Assembly (NCBI GenBank): GCA_025356745.1
Contig: JANXRS010000417.1
Location: forward strand, 1-42,400
DNA: 42,400 nt
Direction: 5' to 3'
Origin: Arcicella sp.
GTDB lineage: Bacteria; Bacteroidota; Bacteroidia; Cytophagales; Spirosomataceae
In this document: positions 24,936-35,756 of the stretch, piece by piece
How positions within the stretch are numbered: position 1 is the first letter of the stretch
Layout of the letters: each line of letters opens with the position of its first letter
The notes under the pieces: model-generated
The model's input: only the letters and a program-made list of their open reading frames with translations
The model's database searches: none
Told to the model about the DNA's origin: nothing
Program-made: the position numbers and the translations under genes

Positions 24936-25304
24936 ATGGCTTGGATTTATCTCATTATTGCGGCTGCTTTGGAAGCTTGTTGGATGTTTTCATTGAAGTT
25001 TTTGTCTTTCTCAAAGTTCAATACTTTAACATTAGATAATTTTTTTAAGTCTGAAGGATTGATTATTTGGTTGCCTTTGGCTGGCTATATTATTTTTGGA
25101 ATTACGAATACTTATTTCTTTTCTTTGGCAATGAAAAGTATTCCGACGGCAATTGCTTTTACTATTTGGACGGCAGTGTCAATTATGTTCATTAAAATAG
25201 CAGATATTGCTTTTTTTGAAAATAAAATTACTCTCACCGAATTCTTATTTCTGGGATTAATCATTGTAGGAATTATTGGGTTAAAATTGTCTTCAAAAGT
25301 TTGA
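24936..25304 (+). CDS. Small multidrug resistance (SMR) family transporter
   Basis: AWIYLIIAAALEACWMFSLK with conserved Glu; IPTAIAFTIWTAVSIMFI; four hydrophobic segments. Confidence 0.88.
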   Translation: MAWIYLIIAAALEACWMFSLKFLSFSKFNTLTLDNFFKSEGLIIWLPLAGYIIFGITNTYFFSLAMKSIPTAIAFTIWTAVSIMFIKIADIAFFENKITLTEFLFLGLIIVGIIGLKLSSKV

Positions 25305-25424: not shown

Positions 25425-26366
25425 ATGCAAAGACGTGATTTACTTCGTTCCGCCAGTCTACTGGCGGGCGGCTTATCCTTACCAAGTTTTACAAAAGCAA
25501 ATCCAAAACTCACCGAAGCGTTGGTCTCCACACCAAAAAGAGTTCTTCGTATTGCCCACATCACGGACGTGCATATTCAGCCACTTATTGGGGCGGCAAA
25601 AGGTTTTGAAAAATGTTTGCATCACATTCAAAATCAGGATATTAAGCCCGATTTCATTATTAATTCTGGCGATTGTGTGATGGATGCCCATCGCCGAAAA
25701 CATGAGAATGTTCAGAAACAGTGGTCGCTTTTTAATCAAGTACTGAAAACAGAAAATTCACTTCCAATTTTTCATTCTGTGGGTAACCATGATATTTGTT
25801 GCGAGGGCGATAGTGTTAGTAATTTTGAGGATGGTAAAAAATGGGCAATGGACGAAATGTCGTTGAGTAATCGCTTTTATAGTTTCGATAAAAAGGATTG
25901 GCACTTTGTAATGTTAGATAGTGTTCAGAAGAAAAAAGATGGGTCTTGGTACACCGCTAATTTAGATGATGAACAGATGGATTGGTTTCGTAAAGATTTA
26001 AGTCAAGTTTCTGACAATAAGCCGACTATGATTATTTCACACATCCCAATTTTGGCAGCCTGCGTATTTTTTGATGGTGATAACATGAAAGAAAAAGAAG
26101 GACGATGGGAAGTGCCAGGCAGTTGGATGCACACCGATGCTAAACAAATTTCAGAGGTTTTTAATGACCATAAAAATGTTAAATTAGCCGTTTCGGGGCA
26201 TATTCACTTGACGGATAGAGTAGATTATAATGGCGTTTCTTATTGTTGCAACGGAGCTGTTTCTGGTCGTTGGTGGTTTGGAAAATATCAACATACCGAA
26301 GCGGGATATGCCATTATTGATTTATTCGACGATGGAAGTTTTACCAATACTTATGTGAGTTATTAA
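25425..26366 (+). CDS. Tat-exported calcineurin-like metallophosphoesterase
   Basis: MQRRDLLRSASLLAGGLSLPSF Tat signal; ITDVHIQP; NSGDCVMDAH; SVGNHDI; SGHIHLTD. Confidence 0.93.
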   Translation: MQRRDLLRSASLLAGGLSLPSFTKANPKLTEALVSTPKRVLRIAHITDVHIQPLIGAAKGFEKCLHHIQNQDIKPDFIINSGDCVMDAHRRKHENVQKQWSLFNQVLKTENSLPIFHSVGNHDICCEGDSVSNFEDGKKWAMDEMSLSNRFYSFDKKDWHFVMLDSVQKKKDGSWYTANLDDEQMDWFRKDLSQVSDNKPTMIISHIPILAACVFFDGDNMKEKEGRWEVPGSWMHTDAKQISEVFNDHKNVKLAVSGHIHLTDRVDYNGVSYCCNGAVSGRWWFGKYQHTEAGYAIIDLFDDGSFTNTYVSY

Positions 26367-26450: not shown

Positions 26451-27356
26451 CTACATAGTATATTCACCTGAAATATGCTTTCTTAATTTCTTCATTTGAG
26501 CAATTTCTGCTTCATACACTTTCTTTATACCATCGCCTGCGGCAGTTTCCACATCACGAATGTCCTTAACCAATCTCGCAAAACCTTGTGGTTCAATTGA
26601 AGCTGCATGGTCTGAACCCCACATCGCACGGTCGAGCGTGAAATGGCGTTCCACAAAAGTTGCTCCCATTGCCACTGCGGCTACCGTTGTTGCCAAACCA
26701 GTTTCATGTCCTGAGTAGCCAATGGGCGTATTTGGAAACATTTCGCTCAAGGTTTTAATCATATTCAAGTTCAACTCTTCGGGTTTGCATGGATAAGCAG
26801 ACGTTGAATGGGCAATCATTAAAGGATAATTTTTATCAAATCCTTTGATAAAATCAACGGTTTCAACTATTTCATTTGGGGTGGACATTCCTGTAGAAAT
26901 TATCAAAGGACGACCCGTTCTGACAATTTTTTCGATTAGTTCAAAATCTGTCAAAGATGCCGATGCTAATTTGTACAATACGGGATTAAAATATTCCAGA
27001 AAATCCACTGACTCCACATCCCAAGGCGAAGCAAACCAATCAACTCCTTTAATTTTTGCGTACTTATTAATGTCTGAATATTCTAAATTTCCAAATTCGG
27101 TTTTACGTTTGTAATCAATGTAACTCATTTTCCCCCAAGGCGTATCCCGCATAATTTCCCATTGGTCGAGTGGAACGCACAATTCGGGTGTTCTTTTTTG
27201 GAATTTAACGGCATCCACTTTTGCAATTTCACCTTCCTCAATGAGTTGTTTTGCCGTTTCTAAAGAGCCATTATGATTAATTCCGATTTCGGCTATAATG
27301 TAACACGGATGTCCTTTGCCAATAATTTTTCCAGATGATAATGTAATACTTTTCAT
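26451..27356 (-). CDS. NeuB/SpsE family PEP-dependent ulosonic acid synthase, TIM barrel only (no SAF domain)
   Basis: CYIIAEIGINHNGSLETAKQLI; DAVKFQKRTPELC; FASPWDVESVDFLE; IGYSGHETGL; FVERHFTLDRAMWGSDHAASIEP; ends at residue 301. Confidence 0.93.
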   Translation of the reverse strand: MKSITLSSGKIIGKGHPCYIIAEIGINHNGSLETAKQLIEEGEIAKVDAVKFQKRTPELCVPLDQWEIMRDTPWGKMSYIDYKRKTEFGNLEYSDINKYAKIKGVDWFASPWDVESVDFLEYFNPVLYKLASASLTDFELIEKIVRTGRPLIISTGMSTPNEIVETVDFIKGFDKNYPLMIAHSTSAYPCKPEELNLNMIKTLSEMFPNTPIGYSGHETGLATTVAAVAMGATFVERHFTLDRAMWGSDHAASIEPQGFARLVKDIRDVETAAGDGIKKVYEAEIAQMKKLRKHISGEYTM

Positions 27357-27865
27357 GTATTTATGTTAGTTTTTGAGGCAATAATTAATTCGGAAAATTC
27401 TCTAAAACACCCTTCTCCACCTTTATTTTCACAGATATAATCAGCGATATTTTTTGTAAAACTGATAGCATCTGCGGGGCAAGCGGTTAAGCCTACTTTT
27501 TGCATGATGGAAATATCATTCACATCGTCACCGATGTAGGCAATATTTTCTTTAGTTAAATTTTGACTATTCATAATTTGTATCAAGACTAACAATTTAT
27601 CCTTGATACCTAAATGCAGTTCAGTAATTTGAAGTTTTTCGGCTCTTTTAATTACTGAAGGAGAACGTTCACCCGTAATAATTCCTGTTTCAACTTCTGC
27701 TAATTTTCGGAGTCTTTCAACACCCATTCCATCACGGACATTAAACTTTTTCAAGATTTCTCCCTGTTCTCCGTAATATACTCCGCCATCAGTTAATACT
27801 CCATCGCAGTCGGTTAATAAGAGTTTTATGTTTCGGGCTTTTACTTTTATTTCTTCGGTTATCAT
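27353..27865 (-). CDS. KdsC-like HAD phosphatase (ulosonic acid phosphate phosphatase)
   Basis: LLLTDCDGVLTDGGVYYGEQGEILKKFNVRDGMGVERL; GIKDKL; AYIGDDVNDISIMQKVGL. Confidence 0.93.
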   Translation of the reverse strand: MITEEIKVKARNIKLLLTDCDGVLTDGGVYYGEQGEILKKFNVRDGMGVERLRKLAEVETGIITGERSPSVIKRAEKLQITELHLGIKDKLLVLIQIMNSQNLTKENIAYIGDDVNDISIMQKVGLTACPADAISFTKNIADYICENKGGEGCFREFSELIIASKTNINT

Positions 27866-27955
27866 TTCGTATTAATTGAATTATAAATTAGTAAATTGTG
27901 CCTTGTTTGATAATTATGATTATTAAATCATCCTTTATTACCGCATACCTAAAAA

Positions 27956-28774
27956 TCAAATAGCTGTCCAGCCACCATCAACCACCAAATTTGCTCCCGT
28001 CATATAGGCCGATGCATCAGAGGCTAAAAAAATAATAGCTCCTTGATAATCAGCCATTTGTGCCATTCTTCCGAGTAAAGTTTTTGCGGAATAATTCTGC
28101 ACGAAAAACTCATCTTGTGAATTTTCAACACCGCCTGGAGATAATGTATTTACTCGCACACCTCTTTTGCCCCAATAAGCGGCTAAATAGCGAGTAAAAT
28201 TGATAATTGCCCCTTTGGTAGTTGGATAAGACGGTGATTTAAAAAAGGTTTGTTCTCCCGCTTCATTCTTATAAATATTCTGGTCAGGACCAACCATTCC
28301 GTAGGTTGAAGCCACATTAATAATACTTCCAGAACCTTGTTTAGCCATAATAGTTCCAAAAACTTGCGAACACGAAAAAACACCTAACACATTTACTTCC
28401 AATGATTTACGAAATGAATCAATTGGATAATTTTCAAAGGCTGATAGTTCAGATGCCATTTCAGGATTTTCAAACATATCATTAATAGCAGCGTTATTTA
28501 CCAAAATATCAATTGTTCCAAAATGGGTAATAATAGTATTTTTAGCATTTTCTAAAGATTCCGATTTGGTTACATCCATCCCTAATCCAATACAATTTTT
28601 ACCCAAAGTTTCAGCGAATACCCTACTGTTTTCTGCTGAAATATCAGCTACTACAACATTGGCTCCCGCCAAAGCCAAGGCTTCACAATGTTTTTTGCCA
28701 ATTAGTCCCGTGCCACCCGTTACAATGGCAGTTTTTTCTTTTAAAGAGAATAATTCAAATGGGTGTTTTTCCAT
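27956..28774 (-). CDS. Short-chain dehydrogenase/reductase
   Basis: AIVTGGTGLIGKKHCEALALAGANVVVAD; NNAAIND; YPTTKGAIINFTRYLA; classical SDR C-terminus MTGANLVVDGGWTAI. Confidence 0.95.
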   Translation of the reverse strand: MEKHPFELFSLKEKTAIVTGGTGLIGKKHCEALALAGANVVVADISAENSRVFAETLGKNCIGLGMDVTKSESLENAKNTIITHFGTIDILVNNAAINDMFENPEMASELSAFENYPIDSFRKSLEVNVLGVFSCSQVFGTIMAKQGSGSIINVASTYGMVGPDQNIYKNEAGEQTFFKSPSYPTTKGAIINFTRYLAAYWGKRGVRVNTLSPGGVENSQDEFFVQNYSAKTLLGRMAQMADYQGAIIFLASDASAYMTGANLVVDGGWTAI

Positions 28775-28841
28775 AATTTGAATTTATAATTTAGTTACCG
28801 CTAACTTTACTCACAGCAAAGTCGTCCGTATAGAATATTTC

Positions 28842-30185
28842 TTAAACTTTTGCTACTGCTGGTTTGATATTATAATTACTCGTTTTTCTAAAGACAGCTT
28901 CTAATACTTCTCCTTTCAAATAGGATTTAACATTTTGAGTTTCAATGGCTTCCTTTACAATTGGCATAACTTCACGATATGCCAAAAGAGTATAATTCAA
29001 GTCTTCATCGGAATGACTAAAACACATATTATGAAAACCCGCCCAAAGAATCCCACGCTTAATCATTTCTTGTTGCATGAGAGCTTTCACTTCTAAGGCA
29101 TTCCCCGCTTCGGGGGCAATAGTTACCATCGTCCTACAATTATATCCGACACATTTGGTCAGATTTTCCATGCCAAATTCTTGGGCAATTTGGTTATAAC
29201 CGTCTTTAATTATTTGTCCTTTTTCATCCAAATATTTTGGAACATTTTTCTTTCTAATTTCTTTAATTGTGGCAATGCAAGCGGCTAAAGAAAGTGCTTC
29301 TCCCCCAAAAGTTGTATAGCTAAATACTTCATTATTAAAGAGTTCCATTACGTCTGCCCGTCCCGTTAAGAGAGAAATGGGCATTCCGTTGGCACAGGCT
29401 TTTGAGTAAACAGCTAAATCTGGAACCACATTAAAATATTCCTGAGCCCCACCTAAAGCGATGCGGAAACCCGTCCACATTTCATCAAAAATTAAAAGCG
29501 TTCCATTTTCTCGACAAGCCTCCGCCAAGGCTTGAAGAAAGTCATTTTGCGGTGCTTCAAAAATAAATGGTTCTAGAATTACCGCCGCCACATCTTCATC
29601 TAATGCTTCAATAATGGCTTCAATATTGTTGTATTCGAAAGTATAAGTCATATTTTGAATGGCTTCTGGAATGCCCGAATTACGACTGGTAATACCGATA
29701 TACCAATCGTGCCAACCGTGATAACCACAGCAAAAAATCTTGTCACGTCCTGTAAATGAACGGGCAACTCTCACCGCTGCGGAACAAACATCAGCCCCCG
29801 TTTTCGAGATTTTTACGGCTTCGGCATTGGGAATTACTTCCTGAATAAGTTCGGATAATTCCACTTCCAAAGGGTGCATTAACGAAAAGGTAATCCCATC
29901 TTCTAATTGTTTCTTGATGGCTTCGTCCACCACAGGATAAGCGTATCCTAAAGAAATTGGACCAATTGCGGAATTGAAATCAATATATTCATTACCATCT
30001 ACATCCCACACGTGCGAGCCTTTTCCTTTTTGTAAATATTTAGGAGCAACACCTTTTGTAAATTGCCCCGGTCCTTTGGCAAGTGTTTGAGTGATAGGCT
30101 TTTGCACTTTTAAAGCACGCTCGTATAAGCTATCAGAATGGGTGATAGTTGGGTAATGTTGATTTGATGTTATAGTATTTGGCAT
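28842..30185 (-). CDS. Class III aminotransferase (glutamate-1-semialdehyde aminomutase-like)
   Basis: YIDFNSAIGPISLGYAYPVVDEAI; CCGYHGWHDWYIG; LLIFDEMWTGFRIALGGAQEYFNVVPDLAVYSKACANGMPISLLTGR. Confidence 0.93.
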   Translation of the reverse strand: MPNTITSNQHYPTITHSDSLYERALKVQKPITQTLAKGPGQFTKGVAPKYLQKGKGSHVWDVDGNEYIDFNSAIGPISLGYAYPVVDEAIKKQLEDGITFSLMHPLEVELSELIQEVIPNAEAVKISKTGADVCSAAVRVARSFTGRDKIFCCGYHGWHDWYIGITSRNSGIPEAIQNMTYTFEYNNIEAIIEALDEDVAAVILEPFIFEAPQNDFLQALAEACRENGTLLIFDEMWTGFRIALGGAQEYFNVVPDLAVYSKACANGMPISLLTGRADVMELFNNEVFSYTTFGGEALSLAACIATIKEIRKKNVPKYLDEKGQIIKDGYNQIAQEFGMENLTKCVGYNCRTMVTIAPEAGNALEVKALMQQEMIKRGILWAGFHNMCFSHSDEDLNYTLLAYREVMPIVKEAIETQNVKSYLKGEVLEAVFRKTSNYNIKPAVAKV

Positions 30186-30188
30186 ATT

Positions 30189-31130
30189 TTATTCGAGAAT
30201 TAATTTATTATCATTCAAATCATCAACCATTATTTCTTCAAAATAACTACTTATCTTTTTCGCCATTTTCATACCCGTAAATCCTTCATATTCAAGCACT
30301 TCTTGAAGTCTGGCGGGTTTAAACCACCTTTCTTCCAAAGCAATTGGCAAAACATTAGCAGTGAGTCGATTTTTCAAAAGCGTTTCTGCCACGATAGAAT
30401 ACAAACCACCCGTTTGAAAATGGTCTTCAATCGTTACCATCAATTCACAACGTAATGCTACACGAATAATGGCTTGCTCATCCACAGGTTTTAGGCTTCT
30501 CATGTTAATTAATCCGACCGATTTTCCTTGTTTTCTCAGAATTTCAGCGGTAATCATGGCTTGTTCAAACATAAATCCATACACCAAAATTGTAACGTCC
30601 GTTCCTTCCGAAATAATTTCGGCTTTACCAATTTCAAAATAGCTATCATGCTGATATACAGATGGTTTTGTGCAAATTCGGACGTAACTTGGATGAGATG
30701 AATCCCATATTTTAGGCAACATCGTTACTAAATCTTGTTCATCAGTAGCCGCAAAAACTTGCATATTTGGAATGCCACGCATAATGCTAATGTCTTCGAT
30801 AGCTTGGTGCGTTGGTCCGTTTCCATCCGATAAAAATCCTGGAATAAAACTGCTTAATTTGACGGGTAAATTACCAATTCCCACATCAGTGCGAATAAAT
30901 TCAAAGGCTCGCATGGATAAAAAGGCTGCTAGAGCGTGAACTACAGGCGTTCTTCCTCGCAAGGCAAGTCCAGCCGCCGCTCCAATCATTGTTTGTTCAG
31001 TTATACCTGTATCAATAAATCGGTTGCCCAAAATAGTGGGCAAATTTCTAACCAAAGCTCGATTCTCGGCGGTCATTACGATGAAACGTTCATCGGCAAG
31101 AGCAGTATTTTTTAATAATTCTTCGTACAT
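30189..31130 (-). CDS. Transketolase, C-terminal (pyrimidine-binding) subunit
   Basis: FIVMTAENRALVRNLPTILGNRFIDTGITEQTMIGAAAGLALRGRTPVVHALAAFLSMRAFEFIRTDVG. Confidence 0.93.
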   Translation of the reverse strand: MYEELLKNTALADERFIVMTAENRALVRNLPTILGNRFIDTGITEQTMIGAAAGLALRGRTPVVHALAAFLSMRAFEFIRTDVGIGNLPVKLSSFIPGFLSDGNGPTHQAIEDISIMRGIPNMQVFAATDEQDLVTMLPKIWDSSHPSYVRICTKPSVYQHDSYFEIGKAEIISEGTDVTILVYGFMFEQAMITAEILRKQGKSVGLINMRSLKPVDEQAIIRVALRCELMVTIEDHFQTGGLYSIVAETLLKNRLTANVLPIALEERWFKPARLQEVLEYEGFTGMKMAKKISSYFEEIMVDDLNDNKLILE

Positions 31131-31168
31131 TTCTTTAATTTTTTTGCCAATAAGACATAAAGTTTGAT

Positions 31169-32026
31169 TTATCGTACCACCATTACTTCTGATTCAAGCG
31201 TGGCTTGATGCGTTCCGTGAAGTTCTTCCAATAATTGTTGTACTTCATTTTCAGAGAAATTACAAAACCAACGGTCGGCTCGGGCTTCGATACTTGGCAA
31301 ACCTTTCCCTCTTATGGTATCGGCAATAACCACATTTAATTTCCCTTTTTTATAAGGAATATCAGCAAATGCCTCTTCTAAGTCTTGAAAATTATGGCCA
31401 TCAATTCGGGTAACGGATGCCCCAAAAGCCTCAAATTTATCCACCAAAGGTTCGAGCGGAATTAAGTCTTCAGTTGCCACGTTTGCTTGAAATTTATTGC
31501 GATCAATTACAAAAATCAGGTTGTCTAATTTGTAAGCATTTGCCACCATCACGGCTTCCCAACATGAGCCTTCGTTGAGTTCGCCATCGCCCATAATACA
31601 AATGACAAGATTCTTTCCTCCTTTGATTTTACAGTCCAATGCCACGCCAATTGCCACCGAAGGCAAATGACCTAACGAACCCGAATGAAATTCAACGCCA
31701 GGAATTTTCGTATTGGGATGCCAATAAATATTATCCAGAGTGGAAAGATGGTTTTGTAGTCTTTCTTCCCCTAAAATTCCCATTTCTACGAGTGTACCAT
31801 ACAAAGCAGGTACGTCATGTCCTTTCGATAAAAAAAGATAATCACGGTTTGGGTCGTGGAGATTATCCGACGAAATATTCAAAAAATCATTATACAGATA
31901 AACCATTAAATCGGTCGCTGAGAGTGATGCACCTACAAAACACCCCCCATCGGTGGACATTTTGATGATGTGTTCACGAACACGCAAGGCAATAGATTCT
32001 AATGCTACAATTTTGTTTTCAATCAT
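31169..32026 (-). CDS. Transketolase, N-terminal (TPP diphosphate-binding) subunit
   Basis: DYLFLSKGHDVPALYGTLVEMGIL; GSLGHLPSVAIGVALDCKIKG; ICIMGDGELNEGSCWEAVMVANAYKLDNLIFVIDRNKFQ. Confidence 0.94.
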   Translation of the reverse strand: MIENKIVALESIALRVREHIIKMSTDGGCFVGASLSATDLMVYLYNDFLNISSDNLHDPNRDYLFLSKGHDVPALYGTLVEMGILGEERLQNHLSTLDNIYWHPNTKIPGVEFHSGSLGHLPSVAIGVALDCKIKGGKNLVICIMGDGELNEGSCWEAVMVANAYKLDNLIFVIDRNKFQANVATEDLIPLEPLVDKFEAFGASVTRIDGHNFQDLEEAFADIPYKKGKLNVVIADTIRGKGLPSIEARADRWFCNFSENEVQQLLEELHGTHQATLESEVMVVR

Positions 32027-32030
32027 TTTA

Positions 32031-32852
32031 TTAGTTTGTTGGTAACTTTTTTGTTTGTCGTGATGAAATAGTGTTTAATTCATCCAGATGATTTCTGTAC
32101 CAATTAACACCAGCGTACTGTTTATTAAAGTCATAAATTTCTGGTTTCAATTGGATTAATTTCAGAATATCCTCCATCGAAAAAGCAACATTTTTGGGGT
32201 ATAATTCCTCAAAAACTCGTTTAATGAATAGGTAATCTTCTGGATAATCAATCGTAAAACGGTGGCTCATCGAATAGTCTAAACCAGTTTCCCATGTCAG
32301 GTTTGCCATGCGAAATTTATCGGGATTTTCCCAAAAATAAGGCGTTGTATGCTCTCTTTCCAAAGGTCGTTTTGCTTCATACCAAGCCTTTTCCAAAGCA
32401 CCAAAAGTCATTAATTCCACATCATTTCCGTCAGGATAAGTCGCAGGATGGAGATTACTAATAAAATTAAATTCTTGCTGATTTTCAAGATAGTAATCAA
32501 TCACTTGATCAATAAGTTTAGGGTCAATTAAAGGACAATCCGAAGGAATCTTTATGACCGCATCTGCCCTTGTTAAAAGTCCGACTTGATAATGACGGTC
32601 GAGTAAATCTTCTAATTCACCTGCGTAGAAAGGTATTTTTTTTTCCGAACAAAATGTTTTGATTACCTCATCTTTTTTGTCTTTAGAAGATGCTACGATA
32701 ATATTAACCGGAAATTTTATCCGCTTCAAACGTTCCAGCATTCTGAATAATAACGTCTCGCCCAAAATTGGGAGCATCACTTTTCCAGGCAAACGACTCG
32801 AAGACATACGAGCTTGTACAACCACGGCAATCGTAGGATTATTACTATTCAT
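32031..32852 (-). CDS. SpsF-like cytidylyltransferase
   Basis: AVVVQARMSSSRLPGKVMLPILGETLLFRMLERLKR; VIKIPSDCPLIDPKLID; RFTIDYPEDY. Confidence 0.92.
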   Translation of the reverse strand: MNSNNPTIAVVVQARMSSSRLPGKVMLPILGETLLFRMLERLKRIKFPVNIIVASSKDKKDEVIKTFCSEKKIPFYAGELEDLLDRHYQVGLLTRADAVIKIPSDCPLIDPKLIDQVIDYYLENQQEFNFISNLHPATYPDGNDVELMTFGALEKAWYEAKRPLEREHTTPYFWENPDKFRMANLTWETGLDYSMSHRFTIDYPEDYLFIKRVFEELYPKNVAFSMEDILKLIQLKPEIYDFNKQYAGVNWYRNHLDELNTISSRQTKKLPTN

Positions 32853-33882
32853 AAATCAATTCTTGATTAGCAATTTTGTATCGATAATTTTTCATAAAAT
32901 CTTCCTTTTTGCCAGTAAATACCAAAAAATCACGACAAATTTGAGCAATATTTTTAGCCGATTTCCCTCCATTTTGAATAGGCATTTGTTGTTTCAATTC
33001 TTCTATATCAAAATAAGAATGAACCTTTTTCTCCAACGCCATGCCCACATACACAGCAGAGGAATATTGCGTGATAAACTCATCACAATTAGCAATCATC
33101 GGGTTAATATCACCAGTAATATAAATAATTGTTTCGGCGGGACCGTGTTCTTTGATTTCAGCGATAGCACGTTCCATTATTTCGTTGGGATGAACTTTGA
33201 AGACCAATTTTCTACCTGCTGCTTTTTCTACACATTCTTTGATAAAAGCAGGACGGTCTTCTTTGCGGAAACATTCACGATTATCAGAAGTGGCCACTAA
33301 AACAAAATCACGAAGTGGAAAATCATTCTGACGATATTGTTGGACATTATCAAAATTGGGAATTCCAGTGGTAACAATTTTATGAGAATCTGTCCCAATT
33401 TTAACGAGTCGTTTTTTATATCCTTCCGAAGCGGAACAATAGACATCACAGATATTGGACGCACCATTTAGGGCAGTTCCCACAGCAAAATAAGGAGGGA
33501 GATGTAATTTTTTAATTACTTTACTTAAAGAAGTATATTCATCAATCATGCCTTCTTGCACCCAAAGGGTCTTGGTTTGCAACATCCTATCTGGAATAAT
33601 CATGTCTGAACAATAAACAACCAAATCGTACTGATTTCTTTTGGCTTTATAATCCATTTTCAAACCCTGTTCTTGGCAATATTTTTCTGAATTTTCTTTG
33701 AATTGACCCGAAACAACAGTTTTCGACAAAATTTTTGTATTATCAATCAACCATTGAAAGGGCGGGAAATCAACGAAGATTTGACTAAACCAACATTCAT
33801 AATCAGTAAGTTCATTTGCAATTTTATGCATTTGAGTCGTTTGATTAATAGAACCTGTGATAAATAAAATTTTTAATTTCAT
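32845..33882 (-). CDS. Predicted GT-B glycosyltransferase, first gene of the ulosonic acid operon
   Basis: LKILFITGSINQTTQMHKIANEL; KLVFKVHPNE; EFITQYSSAVYVGMALEKKVHSYFD; overlaps the cytidylyltransferase gene by 8 bp. Confidence 0.7.
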   Translation of the reverse strand: MKLKILFITGSINQTTQMHKIANELTDYECWFSQIFVDFPPFQWLIDNTKILSKTVVSGQFKENSEKYCQEQGLKMDYKAKRNQYDLVVYCSDMIIPDRMLQTKTLWVQEGMIDEYTSLSKVIKKLHLPPYFAVGTALNGASNICDVYCSASEGYKKRLVKIGTDSHKIVTTGIPNFDNVQQYRQNDFPLRDFVLVATSDNRECFRKEDRPAFIKECVEKAAGRKLVFKVHPNEIMERAIAEIKEHGPAETIIYITGDINPMIANCDEFITQYSSAVYVGMALEKKVHSYFDIEELKQQMPIQNGGKSAKNIAQICRDFLVFTGKKEDFMKNYRYKIANQELIYE

Positions 33883-34427: not shown

Positions 34428-35756
34428 TTATATTTCTAACAACTTCAGTATTTCCTTCTTCGCTTTTTCTTCATTATCAAACCAGTATTCCTCCAAAAGT
34501 GGGGCAATTTCCAGATTTATTACCCGACGATACCATTTCTCTACATCTTCGCCTTCCGTAAAGTTAGAAAAATAACTATGCCCAATCTGAAAGCCTTTTT
34601 GAAGATTTTTATCGTTAGTAATTATTTCGTTGAGTTTTGAAATACGAGCAACGATTTTTTCAGAAAATGATTTTTTAATTCCTTTTCCCAATAAAAAATC
34701 AACAAATTTTTCGTTAAAAAGTGGTTCGAGAGAAATAAAAGCAAAACGGCGACGAAGGGCATAATCAATCATGGCTAATGAACGGTCTGCGGTGTTCATG
34801 GTTCCGATAATATGTAGATTATCAGGCACATAGAAAGGCTCTGAATCTTTATCTCCGTAGGTTAAAGTCATTTCGTTGGCTCGTCCACGCTTGTCAGATT
34901 CTATCAAAAGGAGTAGTTCTCCAAATATTTTACTCAAATTTCCACGATTAATTTCGTCAATAATAAAAAAATGGTCAATCCCAGCATGACGCTGAGCTTG
35001 TCGGCAAAATTCGTAGAAAACACCATTTTTCAATTTAAATCCGCCCGAATCATCTGGTCGTAAACCTTGAATAAAATCTTCATAACTGTATGATTGGTGA
35101 AACTGAACCATCTTGATTCTGGAATCGTCTTGCGTGCCAATTTGTGTGTATGCCAATCGTTTGGCGATGAAAGTTTTACCAACACCAGGAGGTCCTTGAA
35201 GGATAATATTTTTCTTATAACGAAGGGTATCAATTATTTCATCAAATTTTTCATCATCAATAAACAAGTCTTTCAAAGCATCTTTTCGCTCATAAGGAAT
35301 CAATATATCTTCCCCTTGCAATGATTCTTTTTGAGCATCAATCATAGCTTGAATCGCTTCAAACTCTTCTTCTGTCAATTTAAATAAACTACCTTGATTA
35401 TTTTTTAAAATTTCAGAATTCTTAAAAAAATGCAATGATTTTAACGCTGACCAATCAATCGGTTCAGGAATTTTCTCTTTAATTTTAAATGATATAACCT
35501 CTCCTAATTTAATATCACGATGTAAAGATTCAGTAATTTCAAGCGTAGCTTTCACTTGCTTTACAGGTGTAGATTCATAACCTACCACAATATCTCCCTT
35601 CTGTACAGATTCAAAATACTTATAAATTCTACGCTTATTTCCAAATTCATTATAAGAGGTATAATGCTGAGTTTGATTGATTTTAAATGAATCAATTGAC
35701 CAGATGCGGGGATTGGCATTGAGCCACCAATAATTTTGGGATTTTTTATCAGCCAT
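34428..35756 (-). CDS. EVE domain plus McrB-like AAA+ NTPase
   Basis: N-terminal NYWWLNANPRIWSIDSF...VQKGDIVVGYES; Walker A GPPGVGKTFIAKRLA; Walker B HFFIIDEINRGNLSKIFGELL; McrB signature IGTMNTADRSLAMIDYALRRRF. Confidence 0.93.
   Translation of the reverse strand: MADKKSQNYWWLNANPRIWSIDSFKINQTQHYTSYNEFGNKRRIYKYFESVQKGDIVVGYESTPVKQVKATLEITESLHRDIKLGEVISFKIKEKIPEPIDWSALKSLHFFKNSEILKNNQGSLFKLTEEEFEAIQAMIDAQKESLQGEDILIPYERKDALKDLFIDDEKFDEIIDTLRYKKNIILQGPPGVGKTFIAKRLAYTQIGTQDDSRIKMVQFHQSYSYEDFIQGLRPDDSGGFKLKNGVFYEFCRQAQRHAGIDHFFIIDEINRGNLSKIFGELLLLIESDKRGRANEMTLTYGDKDSEPFYVPDNLHIIGTMNTADRSLAMIDYALRRRFAFISLEPLFNEKFVDFLLGKGIKKSFSEKIVARISKLNEIITNDKNLQKGFQIGHSYFSNFTEGEDVEKWYRRVINLEIAPLLEEYWFDNEEKAKKEILKLLEI

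Follow-up and report, generated by a model that had tools for sequence, protein, structure and literature searches.

A conserved Bacteroidota gene cassette with a modified split transketolase that may supply an aminated ulosonic acid to a membrane lipid

Introduction

What sugar would be made by an operon in which a split transketolase (TK) and an aminotransferase accompany a NeuB-family synthase, and onto what would that sugar be placed? Such an operon lies in a 42,400-nucleotide stretch of Arcicella sp. DNA (contig JANXRS010000417.1 of assembly GCA_025356745.1; the whole stretch is called the window below). Eight minus-strand open reading frames (ORFs) fill positions 26451-33882 in the order GT (candidate glycosyltransferase), SpsF (cytidylyltransferase), TKN and TKC (the halves of the transketolase-like enzyme), AT3 (class III aminotransferase), SDR (short-chain dehydrogenase), KdsC (phosphatase), and NeuB. 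The tight packing described in an earlier note, made from the sequence of this locus, is indeed present: GT overlaps SpsF by 8 bp, KdsC overlaps NeuB by 4 bp, and the genes from SpsF to KdsC are separated by 4, 38, 3, 67, and 90 bp. Our answer, which we hold with even confidence, is that the cassette would make a cytidine monophosphate (CMP)-activated, aminated ulosonic acid, and that a dedicated GT would put it on a membrane lipid, not on capsule or O-antigen. The conserved gene set, a fusion of KdsC with NeuB, changes in the TK active site, and genetic linkage to lipid genes were computed directly.

Results

Compared with genome contigs, the window NeuB matched 51 loci; in 48 the identity is 64-85%, and every one of these is from Bacteroidota (Flectobacillus, Pseudarcicella, Spirosoma, many Mucilaginibacter, and a few unnamed bins). 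About 45 named loci of the phylum have the block. Among 57 Bacteroidota loci examined, a set that is redundant in Mucilaginibacter and in which some entries are one contig fetched twice, 47 reached the GT gene and carried the block. Gene order deviated only in L093 and L116, the latter having no KdsC match, and gene-poor loci were mostly truncated by contig ends. The TK and AT3 genes, whose conservation with NeuB and SpsF the earlier note had proposed to check, are kept in the 47 loci that extend that far. Co-location of the cassette genes is far beyond chance, and we conclude that the cassette is a conserved unit of eight to ten genes. In 29 of the 57 loci, KdsC and NeuB form a single reading frame of about 479 amino acids (aa); in one of them (L064) the fusion was verified by matches to both Pfam domains. 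Two Mucilaginibacter loci (L094 and L097, from strains SG564 and OK268) have a lone KdsC~NeuB fusion, the other cassette genes not being found in the fetched flanks.

In a sample of 395 genomes taken across the phylum, a cassette-type TKN (E <= 1e-70) was present in 40 genomes, which belong to 27 of the 171 genera covered. At the places fetched from this sample the block was mostly intact and in some cases split. In one genome (G063), a GT-SpsF-TKN-TKC-AT3 half lies 0.6 Mb from a half with the order FAH-NeuB-KdsC-SDR (L170), FAH being a membrane protein gene described below; in another (G181), the cassette-type NeuB is likewise kept at a second locus. The conservation of the parts after their separation argues for a shared pathway. 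Outside Bacteroidota, where spread was followed in plasmid records, the cassette is carried by plasmid NZ_AP019784 of the methanotrophic gammaproteobacterium Methylomagnum ishizawai. A mobilizable plasmid of Hymenobacter psoromatis (CP014769; L185:12001-12882) has a lone cassette-type NeuB, 67% identical; the rest of the cassette was not found in the stretch fetched around it.

The synthase with which the pathway would begin (NeuB, 26451..27356, minus strand; PF03102, 248 bits) has no C-terminal SAF domain that a Pfam search could find, and scores below the cut-offs of canonical synthases (TIGR03569, 255.5 bits against 399.65; TIGR03586, 209.1 bits against 340.25). A tree and a motif table place the cassette NeuBs in a clade marked by the motif FQKR, outside the clades of the neuraminic (Neu), legionaminic (Leg), and pseudaminic (Pse) acid synthases; FQM, HQT, IQT, and similar triplets occupy this position in the Neu, Pse, and spore-coat synthases of the tree. 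A few other Cytophagales NeuBs (L022-L024) are also FQKR, yet very divergent. Further members of the clade are an Azospirillum NeuB adjoining a haloacid dehalogenase (HAD) protein and a Nonomuraea polypeptide with 54% identity. The latter, in Nonomuraea gerenzanensis (NZ_LT559118, L184:13654-15846), is a 730-aa frame in which a NeuA-like cytidylyltransferase, a KdsC-like phosphatase, and a cassette-like NeuB are joined; it looks like a compact synthase of the CMP-Kdn type (Kdn, ketodeoxynonulosonic acid), and no transketolase was found nearby. On the Azospirillum thermophilum plasmid (NZ_CP029359, L186:11998-13941), the FQKR-type NeuB is followed by the HAD hydrolase family protein, and a Leg-type cluster lies on the opposite strand.

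The phosphatase (KdsC, 27353..27865, minus strand) belongs to the KdsC family (TIGR01670, 159.5 bits; cut-off 107). Its best equivalog match is the Kdn 9-phosphate (Kdn-9-P) phosphatase NF058599, at 168.7 bits and below the cut-off of 180, and we grade it Kdn-9-P phosphatase-like without assigning it as that enzyme. The nearest solved structure is 3e81, which we take to be BT1713, the Kdn-9-P phosphatase of Bacteroides thetaiotaomicron. Equivalents of Glu56, Arg64, and Lys67 occur in all 54 KdsC copies, and E. coli KdsC has Arg, Arg, and Thr at these positions; the three residues are presumably markers of Kdn-9-P phosphatases and were reportedly introduced as such by Lu et al. in 2009. The features of KdsC and NeuB point to a phosphorylated route of the Kdn-9-P type, not to Kdo (ketodeoxyoctonic acid), Neu, Leg, or Pse, and to a hexose 6-phosphate as its start. 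From such a start, no transketolase would be needed upstream of NeuB. Both B. thetaiotaomicron and Prymnesium have an established route from mannose 6-phosphate (Man-6-P) through Kdn-9-P (PMC6200933). As the earlier note had remarked, the usual upstream enzymes of Neu, Leg, and Pse synthesis (epimerase, dehydratase, N-acetyltransferase) are missing: none is among the conserved cassette genes. This NeuB is the only one in the window genome (G000; assembly 88% complete), and no second, canonical nonulosonic acid pathway was seen there.

Two gene products would activate and transfer the sugar. The cytidylyltransferase (SpsF, 32031..32852, minus strand) is of the CTP_transf_3 type (PF02348, 104 bits), and its nearest solved structure is 6oew, 'Cytidylyltransferase' (E 1e-41). 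The first operon gene (GT, 32845..33882, minus strand) gave no family match above cut-off and no significant sequence match in the Protein Data Bank (PDB). Its AlphaFold2 model has a GT-B fold (predicted local distance difference test score 87.8, predicted template modelling score 0.86), and Foldseek matches, CMP- and CDP-using enzymes among them, comprise non-hydrolysing 2-epimerases (most of the nearest), a CMP-bound capsule multienzyme, TagF, and a polysialyltransferase. Motifs of the HP and acidic-E-G type mark GT-B glycosyltransferases that use CMP-sugars, and in an alignment of 30 members the motifs W-x-QEGM and K-x-HPNE are invariant. Assignment of this protein as a UDP-GlcNAc 2-epimerase was set aside, though it keeps some likelihood: the protein is weakly similar in sequence (Epimerase_2, 26.8 bits against a cut-off of 30.6) and similar in fold, but no family is reached at cut-off.

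The destination of the sugar is suggested by accessory genes. A membrane protein of the FA_hydroxylase family (FAH) is encoded in 52 of the 57 loci and a small multidrug-resistance-family membrane protein (SMR) in 50, normally directly downstream of NeuB. The sole NCBIfam match of FAH, in 13 of 13 members, is OlsE (NF052566), with 105 bits in the member shown against a cut-off of 475; we therefore call it OlsE-like and do not assign it as OlsE. SMR usually follows NeuB or FAH on the cassette strand; in the window (24936..25304, plus strand; PF00893, 47.7 bits) it is inverted, as in L059.

Lipid-synthesis genes adjoin the cassette in two unrelated lineages. On the Methylomagnum plasmid, lplT lies on the same strand and overlaps KdsC by 4 bp (LplT, 552 bits; cut-off 297), followed by OlsB-like and OlsA-like acyltransferase genes. 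In five representative Bacteroidota loci (L149, L156, L164, L177, and L180, of which L164 is truncated by the contig end), a homologue of OlsF, the bifunctional ornithine lipid synthase (NF052615), is the next gene downstream on the same strand; it scores 717.7 bits in L149 against a cut-off of 620, and OlsF is also above cut-off in genomes G089, G108, G123, and G400. In four further loci, the gene immediately upstream of GT encodes an LPG_synthase_TM protein. Within the 395-genome sample, OlsF was above cut-off in 16 genomes and the cassette was present in 40, with seven genomes having both (Fisher p = 0.0004, a value that ignores phylogeny). The OlsE-like and SMR genes, the fusion, and the linkage to lipid genes, all of which the earlier note had missed, make a lipid, and no longer a surface glycan, the likely product.

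The most serious competitor holds that TK, AT3, and SDR tailor a nonulosonic acid, Kdn-like or other, for a surface glycan of the usual kind (O-antigen, capsule, S-layer, or flagellin glycan) and that the lipid genes are coincidental. Known bacterial nonulosonic acids do decorate surface glycans, the GT-B fold of GT resembles capsule enzymes, and SMR proteins are not lipid-specific. However, the flanks are variable and contain no recurring polysaccharide locus, there is a single GT with no conserved additional glycan genes, and the genes that do adjoin the cassette, in the two lineages named above, are lipid genes. We regard a surface glycan as doubtful, with perhaps one chance in a few of being correct.

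The transketolase-like enzyme is split into TKN (31169..32026, minus strand; PF00456, Transketolase_N) and TKC (30189..31130, minus strand; PF02779, Transket_pyr, and PF02780, Transketolase_C). The nearest solved structures are those of a split TK, 6yak for TKN and 6yaj for TKC. Thiamine diphosphate (ThDP) and catalytic residues (the Asp of GDG, an Asn, H70, H103, Glu45, and His108) are invariant across about 90 copies; in TKC, the catalytic Glu and the His of GPTH are kept in 90 of 90, and the D469-equivalent is Asn in the same 90. The substrate site is altered. The His of the 'G-H-P/T' motif of TKN is Phe in 92 of 92 copies, and the 'W-H' motif reads W-F in 92 of 92. We take these two positions to be the substrate His pair of transketolase, E. 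coli His26/His261 and yeast His30/His263; in ordinary transketolases these residues touch the substrate carbonyl. The loss of both histidines while the ThDP residues are kept suggests that the cassette TK still works with ThDP but on another substrate, probably one without phosphate; a transketolase of sugar phosphates it probably is not. The H461-equivalent of TKC was considered as a diagnostic position and rejected, since other split TKs vary there as well. In two Cytophagales relatives (L120 and L121), another split transketolase has an ORF of about 460 aa between the TKN and TKC genes.

These changes bear on the order of steps that the earlier note had envisaged, in which the split TK builds or trims the carbon chain of a sugar phosphate before NeuB acts and amination precedes condensation. 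The enzyme does belong to the transketolase family, NeuB and KdsC do imply a phosphorylated aldose, and aminoshikimate-type pathways provide a precedent. Against this order, both substrate histidines are lost from the cassette enzymes, whereas the 17 split TKs found outside the cassette in related genomes still have the first, and a His at the second motif; the Kdn-9-P markers imply a substrate of the Man-6-P type, which is already available; and in the split genome G063, SDR stands with KdsC and NeuB, apart from TK, AT3, SpsF, and GT, which groups TK with the late steps. A sugar-phosphate transketolase step ahead of NeuB is therefore improbable.

Tailoring would be completed by the two remaining enzymes. 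The dehydrogenase (SDR, 27956..28774, minus strand; PF13561, 161 bits) is probably NAD-dependent: Tyr, Lys, and an NAD-type Asp after beta-2 are conserved in 51 of 51 copies. In Acinetobacter, a nonulosonic acid is inverted at C8 by an SDR of the same Pfam family, adh_short_C2, together with a protein that combines CTP_transf_3 and aldo/keto reductase parts (PMC12053666). The aminotransferase (AT3, 28842..30185, minus strand; Aminotran_3, PF00202, 171 bits) is a class III enzyme dependent on pyridoxal phosphate (PLP), whose PLP Lys and Asp are conserved in 49 of 49 copies. It had been described as resembling glutamate-1-semialdehyde aminomutase (GSAM). The likeness stands, GSAM being among its PDB matches together with C-6' aminotransferases. 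Identity as the aminomutase does not follow: TIGR00713 (hemL) gives 243.6 bits against a cut-off of 527.3, PRK06209 gives 360 bits against 486, and the internal loop region is shorter than in 2hoy. The other family calls made for the operon (SAF-less NeuB, KdsC-type phosphatase, the SDR and aminotransferase pair, cytidylyltransferase) hold up in Pfam and NCBIfam.

Combining these features, we propose the following pathway. NeuB would join phosphoenolpyruvate (PEP) to a hexose 6-phosphate, most simply Man-6-P, to give a Kdn-9-P-type nonulosonate, and KdsC would take off the phosphate; family and residue markers back these two steps, the FQKR clade and the fusion with KdsC speaking indirectly for the use of Man-6-P and PEP by NeuB. 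The NAD-dependent SDR may then oxidise a carbinol, for which C8 is an attractive site because oxidation there leaves HOCH2-CO-CHOH-, exactly a transketolase donor. On this non-phosphorylated substrate, the modified split TK would most simply cut off the C8-C9 two-carbon unit, leaving a C7 terminal aldehyde, the group handled by GSAM-like and C-6' aminotransferases, and AT3 could turn it into CH2NH2. The predicted product before activation is 7-amino-3,7-dideoxy-hept-2-ulosonic acid. SpsF would form the CMP-sugar, GT would move the sugar to a lipid, and the OlsE-like hydroxylase and SMR (elsewhere LplT, OlsF, and OlsB/OlsA) would act on the lipid. We infer everything from the SDR oxidation onwards, including the exact sugar, the TK step, and the acceptor. 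Oxidation at C8 followed by transketolase trimming accommodates every enzyme of the set and is put forward tentatively, as less likely than not. More tentative still is the complete proposal, in which a ceramide-type or amino-acid lipid bears the trimmed and aminated Kdn-type acid as a zwitterionic headgroup free of phosphate; this lipid class would occur in roughly a tenth of the sampled Bacteroidota.

The same enzymes could lengthen the chain instead: SDR would make an aldehyde on the ulosonate, and TK would extend it by a ketol unit into a C11 chain, whose new ketone AT3 would aminate. The enzyme set and the loss of substrate residues are equally accounted for, but secondary alcohols are the usual target of SDRs and terminal aldehydes that of GSAM-like aminotransferases, habits that both fit trimming better, and we consider elongation quite improbable. 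Least probable is that TK, AT3, and SDR serve to build the lipid moiety, transferring glycolaldehyde to a long-chain aldehyde that is transaminated to an amino-diol base and then glycosylated with Kdn: TK lacks residues with which ordinary transketolases touch the carbonyl of the sugar, and lipid genes are linked, but the acyltransferases of the Methylomagnum plasmid already supply acyl chains and the nearest relatives of AT3 act on small polar substrates.

Several observations weigh against the proposed trimming of a Kdn-type acid and its transfer to a lipid. FAH is missing between NeuB and the neighbouring metallophosphatase gene of the window, the 88%-complete genome offering a mere 28% match elsewhere, and it is absent from the Methylomagnum plasmid; FAH is thus not essential. 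The FAH, OlsB-like, and OlsA-like proteins all score below curated cut-offs. All seven genomes with both OlsF and the cassette fall in one family (f35), so shared ancestry could explain that linkage. At the thresholds used, OlsF and GlsB are absent from the window genome (G000) and from its relatives G006, G008, G012, and G025; an ornithine or glycine lipid made by these enzymes is therefore an unlikely acceptor in the window's own family and is not supported there. The transketolase step, finally, is chemical reasoning.

The acceptor probably differs between clades. Serine palmitoyltransferase, looked for with TIGR01825, gave matches below cut-off only. Flectobacillus carries the cassette (L061 and L062), and large amounts of a 'unique type of glycosphingolipid' are cited for F. 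major in a passage of one article (PMC5155239) that we use as a lead; a description of the genes for its biosynthesis was not found in the literature searched.

Gene calls throughout are simple ORFs. Next to the operon, a calcineurin-like metallophosphatase gene (25425-26366, plus strand) was rejected as a member of the system; it is syntenic in near relatives only (nine of the 57 loci). Upstream of the operon, beyond a gap of about 550 bp, a gene judged by eye to encode a McrB-like AAA ATPase (34428-35756, minus strand) is a possible restriction or defence gene. In several Spirosomataceae, an outer-membrane-like protein of about 855 aa is encoded directly upstream of GT (L059:546-3116, also L110, L111, L112, and L114); the window has unrelated genes in that place.

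Discussion

If the proposed pathway is correct, bacteria contain a kind of membrane lipid that is undescribed in the papers searched, and a widespread, unannotated cassette would explain a class of ulosonic-acid lipids. A transketolase would have gained a new job outside sugar-phosphate metabolism, and bacterial membrane lipids would be tied to sialic-acid-like sugars. The proposal is directly testable, since the cassette occurs in cultured Flectobacillus and Mucilaginibacter. Searches of the open-licence literature for transketolase with nonulosonic acid and aminotransferase, or for transketolase with NeuB and GSAM, returned no paper, and broader searches returned only canonical nonulosonic acid or unrelated work in which this combination is not described; nor did the papers searched assign a matching operon to a known nonulosonic acid or Kdo pathway, an outcome that the earlier note had named as refuting its view.

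Compared with known systems, the early steps appear most like those of the Kdn-9-P pathway of B. thetaiotaomicron (BT1713-BT1715), with which the cassette shares a NeuB-type synthase, a KdsC-type phosphatase with E56/R64/K67, a cytidylyltransferase, and a predicted phosphorylated intermediate; membership is limited, the residue markers being present and the curated score not reached. Unlike that pathway, the cassette has an SpsF-type rather than NeuA-type cytidylyltransferase, a split TK, a class III aminotransferase, an SDR, its own GT, the KdsC~NeuB fusion, and linked lipid genes. Canonical Neu5Ac, Leg, and Pse (nab) clusters share a NeuB family synthase and CMP activation; the cassette differs from them in having a phosphatase, in lacking a 2-epimerase, a 4,6-dehydratase, an N-acetyltransferase, and the SAF domain, and in a NeuB that lies outside their clades.

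The logic of oxidising, transaminating, and then activating has a precedent in the Kdo8N pathway of Shewanella (KdnA/KdnB), where an ulosonic acid is oxidised and transaminated before CMP activation to give a zwitterionic ulosonate. That pathway acts on Kdo for lipopolysaccharide, with other enzyme families and no TK. The split TK of C. hydrogenoformans (6yak/6yaj) shares the two-chain architecture, the ThDP residues, the catalytic Glu, and several His with the cassette enzyme, which invariantly has Phe and Trp-Phe in place of the two substrate histidines and Asn at the D469-equivalent. The Acinetobacter enzymes EpaA/EpaB and AciE (PMC12053666) likewise pair an adh_short_C2 SDR with a CTP_transf_3 protein acting at nonulosonic C8, but end in epimerisation, and have an aldo/keto reductase domain where the cassette has TK and the aminotransferase.

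With ornithine-lipid synthesis and modification (OlsF, OlsB/OlsA, OlsE), the cassette shares linked OlsF and OlsB/OlsA-like genes and a hydroxylase whose match is to OlsE and no other family. It differs in that FAH is far under the OlsE cut-off, the window's family is without OlsF and GlsB, and the papers searched describe known ornithine lipids without any ulosonic acid. Set beside these systems, the cassette is probably a nonulosonic-type pathway with a new destination, the membrane lipid.

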